A stretch of 64,000 bases of DNA from Thermoguttaceae bacterium (GTDB lineage: Bacteria; Planctomycetota; Planctomycetia; Pirellulales; Thermoguttaceae). The stretch is from the NCBI GenBank assembly GCA_029975295.1, contig JARKPK010000156.1, forward strand, positions 1 through 64,000, in the 5' to 3' direction. Numbering within the stretch: position 1 is the first letter of the stretch; each line of letters opens with the position of its first letter. The notes below the pieces were generated by a model that saw only the letters and a list, made by a program, of their open reading frames with translations, was not told where the DNA came from and did not search any database. Positions 37,854 to 59,127 of the stretch are shown piece after piece. A program made the position numbers and the translations under genes.

Positions 37854-40763
<2,910 letters not shown>

Positions 40764-40859
40764 CATGAATCAAATGCTCCTGGTGGCCTCGCACAATGCC
40801 GCAGTCTGCAAACAACCGAACAAAAGATGCCGTTGTCTCTCAACGGACGCGGCATCACT

Positions 40860-40969
40860 TTCCGGTGACGATATCCGAAAGGCCACACCCGTTCCCATCC
40901 CGAACACGGCAGTTAAGCTTTCGGAGCCGATGGTAGTGCCGCAAGCGCGAGAGTAGGTGTCGCCGGATC
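40860..40969 (+). rRNA. rrf: 5S ribosomal RNA
   Basis: About 110 bases. The ends pair as TCCGGTGAC (5') with GTCGCCGGA (3'). The conserved CCCATCCCGAACACGG and GCCGATGGTAGTG-like and GCGAGAGTAGG segments are present. The gap from the 23S 3' end is about 96 bases, without a tRNA. Confidence 0.95.
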
Positions 40970-55092: not shown

Positions 55093-56100
55093 GTGCCGCG
55101 TCTGACGCAGTACGTATCGAGCACCGGCGTGCGAATCTATCGGATTCCCTGCCTCGCCTTGCCCGACTTGCCCCTGCGCGTTTATCTGCTCGTCGGCGCC
55201 GGCGAGCCAACCCTAATTGATGCCGGCAGCGGCATTGGCAACTGCTCCTCGGAAATTGTTGCGGGCATCGACCGAATCCGGCACGAGTTCAATGAACCAA
55301 TCGCTCCGTCCGACATTCGGCGCATCATTATCACGCACGCCCATCTCGATCATTTCGGCGGACTCAGTCAATTGGTTCGGATCATGCCCGCCGAGGTGGT
55401 CGCCCATCCGCTCGATGCCGGCGCGCTGGCGGCTTGGGAAGAATATGCCGTGATGAGCAAGCAGCGCCTCGGGCTGTTCTTCCGCGAAGCCGGAGTGGAG
55501 GCCCCCCTTGGCCAGCAGCTTCTGGCGGCGTCGCGGTTCGAACGAACCCGACTCACACCGGTGCCCGTCGATCGCTGGCTGTCGGATGGCCAAGAACTCG
55601 ACGGCATGAAGATCATCCATACCCCGGGCCACTCGGCCGGACATTGCTGCATTGCCGTGGGCGACGTCTTGCTGACGGCCGACCACATTCTCGCCCGAAC
55701 CGTGCCGCAGCAATGGCCCGAACGCATCAGCCCCTTTCTCGGCTTGTCGCACTACCTCCAGTCGCTCCAGCGAATCGAACAGGCCGACGCTTTCCGCCTC
55801 GGCCTCGCCTCGCATGAAGAAGCCATTCACAACTTGGCCCATCGCATCGACACGATCCGTCAAAGCCACCGCCGCCGGTGCGATCGTCTGCTGGGGTTCA
55901 TTGCCGACGCTAGGCAGCCGCCTACTGTGGCCGAACTCGCTCATCGGATGTATGGAGAGTTGGCAGGCTTTCGCGGAGTGCTAGCTCTGACCGACGTCGG
56001 CGCCCGAATCGAATACCTCCAACAGCTCGGAGAGGTTCGACTCGGCAATCTGGACGAAGTCGAGGCAGACCATCTGGCGCCATGGCGATTCGTCCGCTAG
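55093..56100 (+). CDS. MBL-fold metallo-hydrolase
   Basis: This 335-residue protein has the metallo-beta-lactamase fold: LIDAGSGIG, the metal motif THAHLDHFGG at about residues 81-90, IHTPGHSAGHCC and LTADHILA. After the core, a helical C-terminal domain of about 80 residues (from RIDTIRQSHRRRCDRLLGFI) matches the winged-helix-like tail seen in this group of hydrolases. The likely activity is a thioester or phosphoester hydrolase; no substrate can be named. The start is a GTG at 55093, chosen because GAGGGG lies 7-8 bases upstream and the protein core begins directly after. A GTG two codons earlier is possible. Confidence 0.9.
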   Translation: MPRLTQYVSSTGVRIYRIPCLALPDLPLRVYLLVGAGEPTLIDAGSGIGNCSSEIVAGIDRIRHEFNEPIAPSDIRRIIITHAHLDHFGGLSQLVRIMPAEVVAHPLDAGALAAWEEYAVMSKQRLGLFFREAGVEAPLGQQLLAASRFERTRLTPVPVDRWLSDGQELDGMKIIHTPGHSAGHCCIAVGDVLLTADHILARTVPQQWPERISPFLGLSHYLQSLQRIEQADAFRLGLASHEEAIHNLAHRIDTIRQSHRRRCDRLLGFIADARQPPTVAELAHRMYGELAGFRGVLALTDVGARIEYLQQLGEVRLGNLDEVEADHLAPWRFVR

Positions 56101-56177: not shown

Positions 56178-56206
56178 TTGACATTATTGTTGCCGCAGAC
56201 AATAAT
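56178..56206 (+). promoter_or_regulatory. Near-consensus promoter of the candidate RNA
   Basis: A perfect TTGACA (56178-56183), a 17-base spacer and AATAAT (56201-56206, 5 of 6) form the best sigma-70-type promoter of the window outside the rRNA region. It stands in a gene-free gap, with the expected start at about 56213. Confidence 0.75.
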
Positions 56207-56212
56207 TCTCTT

Positions 56213-56472
56213 GGGTGAAGAACATCCTTGTCGCAGGCTCATGGCAAGCCTGTCGGGATGTGTGGGAAGCTTGTGGTGACTTCTTTCGGAGCCTCGTCGC
56301 GTTGGTGTGTGGCGCGGCGAGGCTCCACTGAAAAGAACAGCACGAGGCCGAAACGGTTCGTCCGCACCACTCAGTTTCGGTTGCACGAATCGATCGACCT
56401 TGCGCTTTGAATAGACCGTTCCCCCCGGTAGCGGCTGCACTCCGATGAGTAGTCGGGGTGCAGCCGTTTTTT
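56213..56472 (+). ncRNA. Candidate structured noncoding RNA of about 260 nt
   Basis: The transcript is framed by a near-consensus promoter and a strong terminator. Three stems lie before the terminator. Stem A: ACATCC/GGATGT (56222-56227 with 56256-56261) with inner CAGGCT/AGCCTG (56234-56239 with 56247-56252). Stem B: 14 pairs, GGAGCCTCGTCGCG (56288-56301) with CGCGGCGAGGCTCC (56313-56326), one G-U, loop of 11. Stem C: CCGAAAC/GTTTCGG (56348-56354 with 56374-56380). It lacks the hallmark sequences of SRP RNA, tmRNA, RNase P and 6S RNA. A 60-codon frame (56228-56410) ends 21 bases before the terminator stem, but has no ribosome-binding site and would have to code through stem B; an mRNA for a small basic protein is the main alternative. 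Confidence 0.6.
56432..56472 (+). terminator. Rho-independent terminator
   Basis: CGGCTGCACTCC (56432-56443) pairs with GGGGTGCAGCCG (56455-56466) with one G-U, loop of 11, then six T (56467-56472). It overlaps the far upstream part of the methyltransferase open frame and therefore argues against starts before 56473 for that gene. Confidence 0.85.
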
Positions 56473-56607
56473 GTTGCCACCATGCCCCCAATCCAAGTTG
56501 GCAGGCGCGGGGCATCTCGGGACCGGTATCGTATCGCGGATTCGTTCTTCTCGCGACGTTCGGGTTACGTCTTGTTGCCGTGGGTGGTTCGGGACAAAAT
56601 ACTGGAC

Positions 56608-59127
56608 ATGCCTGCCCGAAGCCGTGCGTCTTTGTCCGCATCTCTACCGCATGCAATCACTCGTCTTTTCGGCCGTCGCTCATCAATTGCCGGCCCGTCG
56701 ATAAGCCGTTGCGCCCGGTTGATCGAGAACCAACTGCCGACCGAGCCGAGCGACGCCTCGGAGACAGCAGGCCGCCTCGCGGTCGAGCAATACTACCGTG
56801 CTGTCGTTGCCGCCGTAACCGCCGCGATGTTCGCATCGTGGCCTCTCGATGTGGTATTCGATCTGCTCGGCCGTTGCGAGAGCGAACCGGCCGAAAGCGG
56901 TCGGCAATCGGGGCGCCACGCCCGTCCCGACCGTCGCTTCTGCTCCGAGCCGTTTGTCAGCCTAGGCAGCGAGTTGTCTCAGACCCCGCACCTGCGAGCC
57001 GAGATCGAGCGCCATCTCGAACGTTCCGGCAACGAAGCCCTGCGAATCGAGGGCGATCTTTTCAAAGACCTGCACCACGATCTGTTCTCGCGATCATGGC
57101 GGCACGGGCACGGGGAATACTACACCCCCGATTGGCTCGCCCGCCGACTCCTCGATGCCGTCGGCTACCGCGGCGATTCAGACGGGCGTTTGCTTGATCC
57201 CGCATGCGGCTCGGGCACGTTCCTTTGCGAAGCGGTTTCCAGACTCATTGCCGGCCGGCCATCCGATCGAATTGCCGGCAATCGGCGTGAGGTGGTCGAG
57301 CAGGTGCTCCATTCCGTCGCTGGAGTCGATGTCAGCCCATTGGCGGTCTGGACGGCGCGCGCCAATCTGTTGGCGGCACTGCGAGGGCTGATCGACCAGG
57401 CGCCCGCGGAGCTGCCCGTTTTCGTTGCAGACTCGATTCTTGCGCCGCCAACGACGGGCGTGTTCGGCCGGCCGTTCGACTTCGTCGTTGGCAACCCACC
57501 ATGGATATCCTGGGACCGGTTGCCTGTTGGCTACCGCAACGCGACGAAACCGTTGTGGTCGCACTACGGTTTGTTCTCGCTCGGCGCGGCCGCCGCGCGC
57601 CACGGCGGCGCAAAAAAAGACCTTTCGATGCTGATGGTGTACGTGGCAGCCGATCGCTACCTGCCCCCAGGCGGGCGTTTGGCAATGGTGCTGCCGCAAA
57701 TCGTGTTGCAATCGGCCGGTTCGGGCGATGGTTTTCGCCGTTTCGTCTTGCCTGACGGAACGAAGCTCGGCGTCTTTCGCGTTGATGATTATTCGCGGGT
57801 GCGCGTGTTCGCCGCAAGCAATTGGACCTGCACACTTTGTCTGGAGAAAGGCCGCCCGACAGAGTTCCCCCTGGAGTATGTCCGTTGGTATCCGTCAACG
57901 GCAGCGAGAAGCGGCGACGTACAGTCGCCTAGTCGGAGCGAGCGGGACCAAATTGCGATGGGAGATACTGAGGAGGCGGCAGACACAAGTGCGGCTCGCC
58001 CAACCACAGACGCAGCCGACGTCGCCCTTCAGCCGGTTGATCCGGCCTGGGGCGGCAATAGCCCCGCCCGAAAACCGAAGCACGGTCCACCAACGCTCGT
58101 GGCCCAACACTGCCAAGCGGCGCCTTTGCGAACGGATTCGCCCGGCGCCCCTTGGATCATTCAATCGCCCGAGTCCGCATTCAGCTTGGCTGCTTTCGTC
58201 GGCAAGTCTGATTATCAGGCTCACCTGGGAGCAAATAGCGGCGGGGCCAACGCCATCTATTGGCTGCGGATTGTGGGCAAAGCGCCGGATGGGGTGCTCG
58301 TCGAGCCTGTCGCGGCTTCCAAAAGACGCCGGGCGGAAAAAGACGAGATGCCCGCTTGCGCCAAAGCCGGCGCCAGTCGGGAATCGCTGGTGATCGAGCC
58401 CGATTTGCTCTACCCTTTGGTCCGTTGGGGAGATGTCGATCGCTTCAGCTTGCAGCGCGGCGATGCTGGGCCGTTCGCAAACGGAACGACCGGCGGGCGA
58501 CTTGCCATCTTGTTGGTTCAAGACCCCAACACGCGCAGCGGCATCAGTGCTTCGCAGTTGTCGGCAACCTGCCCGCGCTGCCAACAGTATCTTGAGCGGC
58601 ACCAATCAACCCTGTTGAGAAGGGCGGCCTATCAACGCTATCAGGCGAAGGCGCCATTTTGGTCGATGTACAACGTCGGCCCCTACACGATCAGCCCCTA
58701 CAAGGTTATCTGGCGGCGGATGGACAAGATCATTCGGGCCGTTGCCTTGGGGCCGTGCCGAGATGAATACCTCGGAGAAAAACCGTTCGTTCCGCAGGAA
58801 ACTTGCGTTTTCGTCGCGTGCCGCGCCATGGCCGAGGCCTTCTACCTGGCCGCCTTGCTGAACAGCGAGATTGTCGGCCAACTCGCCTCGGCCCAAAGCG
58901 TCGTCGGCGGAAAGGGCTTCGGTACGCCAGGTATGTTCGCGCAACTGAACATTCGCCGGTTCTCCAACGACAATCCGAGGCACCGACGGCTGGCATTCTT
59001 GGGCGGTGAAGCCCATCGGCAACCACACACCTGCGATGTAGTGCTTCAAGAGATCAACGCGATCGCTCGCGAAGAGTACCTCGCGAACCCGCAAATTCGC
59101 GGACGGCCGACCCGCTTGCACGACTAA
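56608..59127 (+). CDS. Class I DNA adenine methyltransferase (Eco57I/N6-methylase type)
   Basis: This protein, about 839 residues if it starts at 56608, is an N6-adenine DNA methyltransferase of the gamma class. GEYYTPDWLARRLLD (near residue 169) and LLDPACGSGTFL (195-206) form the SAM-binding region, and VGNPPWISWD (near 294) is catalytic motif IV. An N-terminal helical region with AVEQYYRAVVAAVTAAMFAS precedes them, and the long C-terminal part (from about 430) resembles a target recognition domain. No nuclease motif was recognised and no restriction gene lies beside it. The start is uncertain: the frame is open from 56458, but a terminator covers the first candidates; an ATG at 56482 is possible, and 56608 could be leaderless. 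Confidence 0.85.
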   Translation: MPARSRASLSASLPHAITRLFGRRSSIAGPSISRCARLIENQLPTEPSDASETAGRLAVEQYYRAVVAAVTAAMFASWPLDVVFDLLGRCESEPAESGRQSGRHARPDRRFCSEPFVSLGSELSQTPHLRAEIERHLERSGNEALRIEGDLFKDLHHDLFSRSWRHGHGEYYTPDWLARRLLDAVGYRGDSDGRLLDPACGSGTFLCEAVSRLIAGRPSDRIAGNRREVVEQVLHSVAGVDVSPLAVWTARANLLAALRGLIDQAPAELPVFVADSILAPPTTGVFGRPFDFVVGNPPWISWDRLPVGYRNATKPLWSHYGLFSLGAAAARHGGAKKDLSMLMVYVAADRYLPPGGRLAMVLPQIVLQSAGSGDGFRRFVLPDGTKLGVFRVDDYSRVRVFAASNWTCTLCLEKGRPTEFPLEYVRWYPSTAARSGDVQSPSRSERDQIAMGDTEEAADTSAARPTTDAADVALQPVDPAWGGNSPARKPKHGPPTLVAQHCQAAPLRTDSPGAPWIIQSPESAFSLAAFVGKSDYQAHLGANSGGANAIYWLRIVGKAPDGVLVEPVAASKRRRAEKDEMPACAKAGASRESLVIEPDLLYPLVRWGDVDRFSLQRGDAGPFANGTTGGRLAILLVQDPNTRSGISASQLSATCPRCQQYLERHQSTLLRRAAYQRYQAKAPFWSMYNVGPYTISPYKVIWRRMDKIIRAVALGPCRDEYLGEKPFVPQETCVFVACRAMAEAFYLAALLNSEIVGQLASAQSVVGGKGFGTPGMFAQLNIRRFSNDNPRHRRLAFLGGEAHRQPHTCDVVLQEINAIAREEYLANPQIRGRPTRLHD

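Follow-up and report, generated by a model that had tools for sequence, protein, structure and literature searches.

A conserved C-rich linker and terminator hairpin as the core of a putative small noncoding RNA in the family of Thermogutta

A C-rich linker joined to a Rho-independent terminator hairpin forms what we regard as a real, family-specific RNA element, undescribed as far as the literature was searched; the family is, in our reading, the one that includes Thermogutta. One member lies in the window, by which we mean the whole 64,000-nt stretch of DNA analysed here, between an MBL-fold hydrolase gene and a DNA methyltransferase gene. We consider it probable that this locus specifies a functional noncoding RNA. 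Towards the fuller statement, in which a small noncoding RNA has this 3' module as its core, either has a promoter of its own or forms the 3' end of an mRNA, and pairs in trans through its linker, we lean with distinctly less assurance.

The locus in the window

The features of the locus and its neighbours are as follows.

55093..56100, + strand: upstream MBL-fold hydrolase gene (Pfam Lactamase_B), unlinked to the module in relatives
56178..56206, + strand: sigma-70-type promoter-like site TTGACA-N17-AATAAT, 11/12 matches
56213..56472, + strand: predicted transcript of ~260 nt, its presumed start placed 7 nt past the -10 hexamer (fold -122.2 kcal/mol, z = -5.07 against 200 shuffles)
56222..56261, + strand: predicted 5' hairpin, from the fold, not conserved, with no relatives found
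56288..56326, + strand: predicted 17-pair hairpin, from the fold, not conserved, with no relatives found
56339..56406, + strand: predicted third hairpin, from the fold, not conserved, with no relatives found
56403..56474, + strand: conserved 3' module, linker plus terminator hairpin (covariance model R2; HMM trained without the window)
56420..56431, + strand: C-rich linker UCCCCCCGGUAG, presumed base-pairing seed, the most conserved stretch (1.58 bits per column over 20 loci)
56433..56472, + strand: terminator hairpin and T run, stem 56433-56446 with 56452-56465 (covariation over 20 loci)
56482..59127, + strand: type IIG-like DNA methyltransferase gene (Pfam N6_Mtase; PADLOC REase_MTase_IIG, 1.3e-123)

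An earlier, sequence-only reading of this gap had outlined a 260-nt structured RNA with its own promoter, a terminator and three stems between them, and each of these parts could be found again. The promoter-like site is the only one in 1.5 kb (shuffled mean 0.2) and one of three in the window with at least 10/12 matches. The terminator, at 56430-56472, has a stem of 17 pairs with G-U allowed and a T run, and the three stems are present as the predicted pairings listed above. Since the scan admits stems of only 5 pairs, terminator-like sites by themselves are not unusual: the 1.5 kb has 2, and shuffles average 1.4. By contrast, the combination of a promoter with a same-strand terminator of 12 pairs or more, no further than 350 nt downstream, occurs in the 64-kb window only at 56178-56472, and in none of 60 dinucleotide shuffles of the window. 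Judged by its sequence, the locus has the promoter and the intrinsic terminator of a free-standing transcription unit, and the 260-nt outline is plausible for transcription in the window's genome, but it does not appear to be the unit that evolution has kept.

The T run ends 9 bases before ATG 56482, which is in frame with the methyltransferase ORF, so close that a leader role has to be considered. The start of the methyltransferase is uncertain (GTG 56458, ATG 56482 or ATG 56608), and the ORF as listed begins at the GTG, within the terminator.

The sequence-only reading had also set aside SRP RNA, tmRNA, RNase P and 6S RNA, in agreement with the Rfam covariance models, none of which matches the candidate stretch at its gathering score; the best sub-threshold match is gyrA RNA, at 23.9 bits against a cut-off of 45. 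Rfam models gave no match at the loci of seven relatives either. The genome's 6S RNA candidate sits on another contig (L142, G000:C115:4679-4877) and scores 46.9 bits against an Rfam cut-off of 46.4. Among the RNAs given for the related T. terrifontis are RNase P, SRP RNA, tmRNA and three riboswitches, whereas a 6S RNA is not reported there (PMC5673643). Elsewhere in the window, at 37854-40968, are 23S and 5S rRNA genes; no 16S match was found in the 64 kb, which points to an unlinked 16S rRNA gene.

Relatives of the locus

Searches by DNA similarity of 119 genomes of the family returned, besides the locus itself, only short, chance-like matches (best E 0.0015 over 31 nt), and the candidate stretch resembled no phage or plasmid. 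Beside 29 homologues of the MBL gene we found neither clpC nor a methyltransferase in flanks of up to 1.5 kb per side, several of them cut by contig ends. A covariance model built from the single sequence (R1) had hits in four other genomes, at E 2e-7 to 1.4e-5, and weaker ones, starting at E 0.044, in a further four. The alignments show that these matches are due mainly to the 3' end of the transcript; the opening portion of the G004 match falls in a protein-coding gene.

Six 3' ends, aligned without a model (alignment A3), were the basis of a second model, R2, which places the module at 20 loci in 19 of the 119 family genomes (12 of 40 genera) at E <= 3.5e-6, six of these loci being its own training sequences. 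The next match lies at E 5.9e-5, and rows of this search at 29.4 bits and less were not counted as members. The locus of G001 was seen at two contig ends (L201 and L215) with the same letters, and L215 is not counted separately. One member contig, JABMRB010000821.1 (L006), is titled 'Candidatus Nealsonbacteria', yet its length and match coordinates equal those of contig C688 of family genome G016, and the label is probably wrong. Against our main reading, 100 of the 119 family genomes have no strong R2 match, so the RNA is dispensable or diverged in most of them.

A sequence-only HMM from which the tested sequence was left out found 18 of the 20 loci again at E <= 1e-5, calculated for a 10-Mb database, missing the two weakest members, G007 (E 1.6) and the second copy in G016 (E 1.2). 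Training kept congeners for many loci and none for the window, which is the sole genome of its genus among the family genomes searched and was recovered at E = 1e-5.

Beyond the family, model R3 found 18 family genomes at 48.8 bits or more among 396 genomes of the order, followed by one family genome at 32.5 bits and four non-family genomes at 29.2-31.4 bits. Among 392 genomes of the phylum it was strong in the window and G023 only, with one weak match at 32.5 bits. Both searches scored 12 first-look candidates per genome under stricter filters, and diverged members may be missed. The weak matches at 29.2-32.5 bits (G080, G154, G238, G283, G346 and G750) were left out as members.

Conservation of the 3' module

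The conserved part is the last ~70 nt, 56403-56474, in which the C-rich linker UUCCCCCCGGUAG is joined to the terminator hairpin. Across loci the linker has the consensus (U)CCCYCCCGGUDG, with the hairpin directly after it. In A3, which is unfitted, 84 of 84 cells are paired, all 14 stem pairs being present in all six sequences, and seven of the 14 have changed on both sides. The 20-row alignment A4 was made by fitting to the model and favours the model's structure; of its 276 cells 97.1% pair, against 41-46% in slid controls, and 12 of the 14 pairs show changes on both sides.

The linker is better conserved than the hairpin. Over the 20 loci, mean information is 1.58 bits per column in the linker (columns 20-32), 1.24 and 1.28 in the stem arms, 0.90 in the loop, 0.83 in the tail and 0.45 in the first 14 columns. 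The module has in this linker the conserved C-rich stretch expected of C-rich sRNAs that pair with Shine-Dalgarno sequences. The window itself reads CCCCCC where CCUCCC is commoner, a point against our main reading. Nine pairs of relatives were compared, and in seven of them identity is higher over the module than in either flank; the exceptions are G018/G069, which stays at 80-96% downstream, and G063/G012, which stays at 72-88% upstream. The window/G016 pair has a low peak: past the GG of the linker, the two bins of the module are 76 and 68% identical.

These results redraw the RNA first proposed. Its 5' ~190 nt and inner hairpins have no detectable relatives, so 260 nt cannot be upheld as a conserved structured unit, and the three inner stems, for which a check of compensatory changes had been suggested, have none to show. 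The suggested covariance search owed its first matches mainly to the 3' end, and there it led to a covarying module of ~72 nt. The 60-codon frame that might have made the transcript a small mRNA (56228-56410) ends ahead of the linker and covers neither linker nor terminator. A noncoding RNA is nonetheless the best reading, because the ~72-nt module is kept with covariation, in differing gene contexts, with a frequent promoter-like site and no reading frame common to all loci.

Frames across the module have an upstream start in 6, 12 and 10 of the 21 listed loci and none does in all, which leaves no shared small protein; the third-position pattern visible in the linker (CCY-CCC-GGD-WGY) belongs to a frame with an upstream start in only 6 of the 21. 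A dispersed terminator repeat was rejected as well: allowing one mismatch at most, the linker pattern occurs 14 times in its own genome, and the reversed control 33 times. Exact linker matches there number two, the module and one on C77, the latter with no terminator after it by eye.

Gene context and promoters in relatives

A type IIG-like methyltransferase lies downstream of the module at 8 of 20 loci (window, G004, G064, G016, G063, G015, G012 and G069). A YHS-domain gene, assigned by Pfam on the G023 copy, ends 14-100 nt upstream at 6 of 20 (G004, G036, G023, G114, G115 and G060). A Cys-rich ORF lies upstream at three (G063, G015 and G012), the G015 copy being without a Pfam match, and a HAD hydrolase gene lies upstream at 9 of the 21 listed loci. 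In G061 and G062 the module is followed by a gene that we take, from its sequence, to be pdxJ. The ancestral order was, in our reading, HAD - YHS/Cys-rich - module - methyltransferase; since then the module, with or without the methyltransferase, would have moved or survived alone.

Where the methyltransferase does follow, it does so in the same orientation, and in the window, G016 and G069 the two occur together outside the YHS context. With the short distance from T run to ATG, this is what would be seen if promoter, RNA and terminator formed a cis-acting leader, an attenuator of the methyltransferase in which binding of a protein or ribosome to the linker determines whether transcription reads through. 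The constant association of module and methyltransferase expected of such a leader was, however, not found. Downstream of the module at 12 of 20 loci, the available sequence showed no methyltransferase (among them G018, whose contig ends ~680 nt past the module, with downstream sequence 80-96% identical to that of G069), at six loci the module follows the YHS gene, and R2 applied to 80 methyltransferase loci gave strong matches at two (L029 and L006) and a weak one, upstream of the gene, at one (L005). We judge the leader unlikely. The weak match, L005:3310-3390, retains a copy of the linker but has an altered hairpin that is very rich in G; it lies upstream of the methyltransferase, after the YHS sequence also present in G004, and may reflect either decay or an assembly error.

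The module might instead be a terminator only, ending upstream transcription and resembling its relatives through descent from one ancestral intergenic region, with no RNA function of its own. The YHS gene ending within ~100 nt at 6 of 20 loci would suit this, as would the HAD hydrolase upstream at 9 of 21, which makes many of the positions orthologous. A terminator, however, has no need of the unpaired linker that is better conserved than the hairpin, and the module stands out against both flanks in all but the two pairs named above and persists where the ancestral neighbours are gone. We hold this explanation to be improbable, more so than the leader.

Promoter-like sites of at least 9/12 matches within 250 nt upstream were found at 10 of the 14 loci without a YHS gene and at none of the six with one; at those six the module would form the 3' end of the YHS-gene transcript. 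Downstream controls reached 9/12 at 1 of 14 non-YHS and 2 of 6 YHS loci (3 of 20). The scan left out L201, which only 30 nt precede, and used the other contig end, L215. At the ten loci, 0-11% of shuffles reach the promoter score; single 9/12 sites are common enough in shuffles (1.5-11%) that only the sum over loci is informative. The 11/12 sites of the window and G016 were reached by none of 200 shuffles, and G016 has ahead of its module the same hexamers and spacing as the window (TTGACA-N17-AATAAT).

The transcripts predicted for relatives with such a site are about 60-170 nt long. In G018 and G069 the site starts ~37 nt before the module and the predicted RNA is 76 nt in each. At the second G016 locus an 11/12 site lies directly before the module, giving a predicted RNA of 60 nt of which linker and hairpin are nearly the whole. 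This last locus (L214, ~2527-2700) carries two promoter-like sites in tandem, both with a short terminator hairpin behind them. The hairpins are similar, the upstream one has its own TATAAT-type site, and the whole looks like a duplicated mini-transcription unit.

Proposed mechanism

Base-pairing is the most likely mechanism and, in our analysis, the most economical idea. The functional core would be the 3' module, the C-rich linker followed by the terminator hairpin. In the window's genome its own promoter would yield the ~260-nt RNA, the 5' extension being private to that genome. Relatives would make the module from promoter-like sites, in RNAs of ~60-170 nt, or at the 3' end of a YHS-domain or Cys-rich gene's mRNA. 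From these sequence features we infer transcription, pairing, targets and repression: the RNA would act in trans, its anti-Shine-Dalgarno-like linker pairing with the G-rich ribosome-binding regions of target mRNAs and lowering their translation, while the hairpin would end and protect the RNA. CCCYCCCGG in the linker is similar to CCUCC, the core of the anti-Shine-Dalgarno sequence. In the window, GGAG-type ribosome-binding sites precede 31 of 107 first ATGs (ORFs >250 aa), against 4.5% of random positions.

Accessibility of the linker is uneven. In seven other predicted transcripts its mean unpaired probability is 0.44-0.58, with the C run mostly open in most. For the window, as for G064, the predicted fold has most of the linker paired with upstream sequence (mean unpaired 0.33), which in the window's case counts against the main reading and could reflect masking or an uncertain fold.

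No Hfq match was found in any of the 19 module-bearing genomes, against 5 of 14 control genomes, and CsrA matches occur in all 19, 2-18 in each (6 in G000; the highest count, that of G064, comes from a 9%-contaminated assembly). The hairpin-loop GGA might be a CsrA site, with the RNA either titrating CsrA or having it as a chaperone. GGA occurs in 12 of 20 loops, mostly as ANGGAU, where shuffles average 3.9 and none of 2000 reaches 12 (relatedness not corrected). It is absent, however, from the window's loop and seven others, the three GGA of the window's transcript lie in or at stems of the predicted fold, and a single site per RNA is unlike the CsrB/RsmZ sponges. This is to us the least probable of the alternatives. 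A combined version is about as improbable as the terminator-only explanation: the linker would be an anti-Shine-Dalgarno seed, the loop GGA would dock a chaperoning or masking CsrA, and the RNA would switch between mRNA 3' end and free-standing gene, the GGA often being lost in free-standing genes, as in the window. The module would then mark an RNA family of Hfq-free planctomycetes working through an enlarged CsrA set.

Relation to known RNAs

Literature searches on planctomycete sRNAs and noncoding RNAs, Thermogutta, C-rich sRNAs, and CsrA or Hfq in planctomycetes returned no paper that describes the module in its title or abstract opening. One candidate structured RNA listed for Planctomycetes is the Rhodopirellula-1 motif (Weinberg et al. 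2010, PMC2864571); by its table description it is probably cis-regulatory and also occurs in Proteobacteria. The literature searched holds little on planctomycete regulatory RNAs, for which the module offers a defined, covarying core with a clear taxonomic range. One member lies in G023, on the minus strand at C1:2944347-2944420. G023 is taken as T. terrifontis R1, for which strand-specific RNA-seq has been published (PMC5673643), so expression of the member can be checked, although the 270-bp inserts of that data set may miss short RNAs. If the RNA acts, it does so in genomes with no Hfq match and several CsrA copies.

Three known classes invite comparison with the putative base-pairing RNA proposed here. 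CsrB and RsmZ are CsrA-binding RNAs that act as sponges. The module is like them in the GGA of its hairpin loop at 12 of 20 loci, and unlike them in having at most one such loop site, and none in the window, where they have several GGA-bearing loops. The sRNAs derived from 3'UTRs are likewise a known class, which the module matches as a conserved 3' end downstream of the YHS gene at six loci, and from which it departs at the ten other loci with a promoter-like site of their own. The third class is that of the C-rich, Shine-Dalgarno-pairing sRNAs of Firmicutes, to which RoxS/RsaE also belong. In IsrR, C-rich regions are reported to serve target recognition independently of Hfq, and FsrA pairs with Shine-Dalgarno sequences (PMC9410917). 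The module comes from another phylum and has no Rfam match, and its terminator is part of what is conserved, where the terminator sequence of IsrR is poorly conserved. It shares with IsrR and FsrA, as described there, a C-rich stretch set beside stem-loops and a Rho-independent terminator, in the case of IsrR with reported independence of Hfq (PMC9410917).
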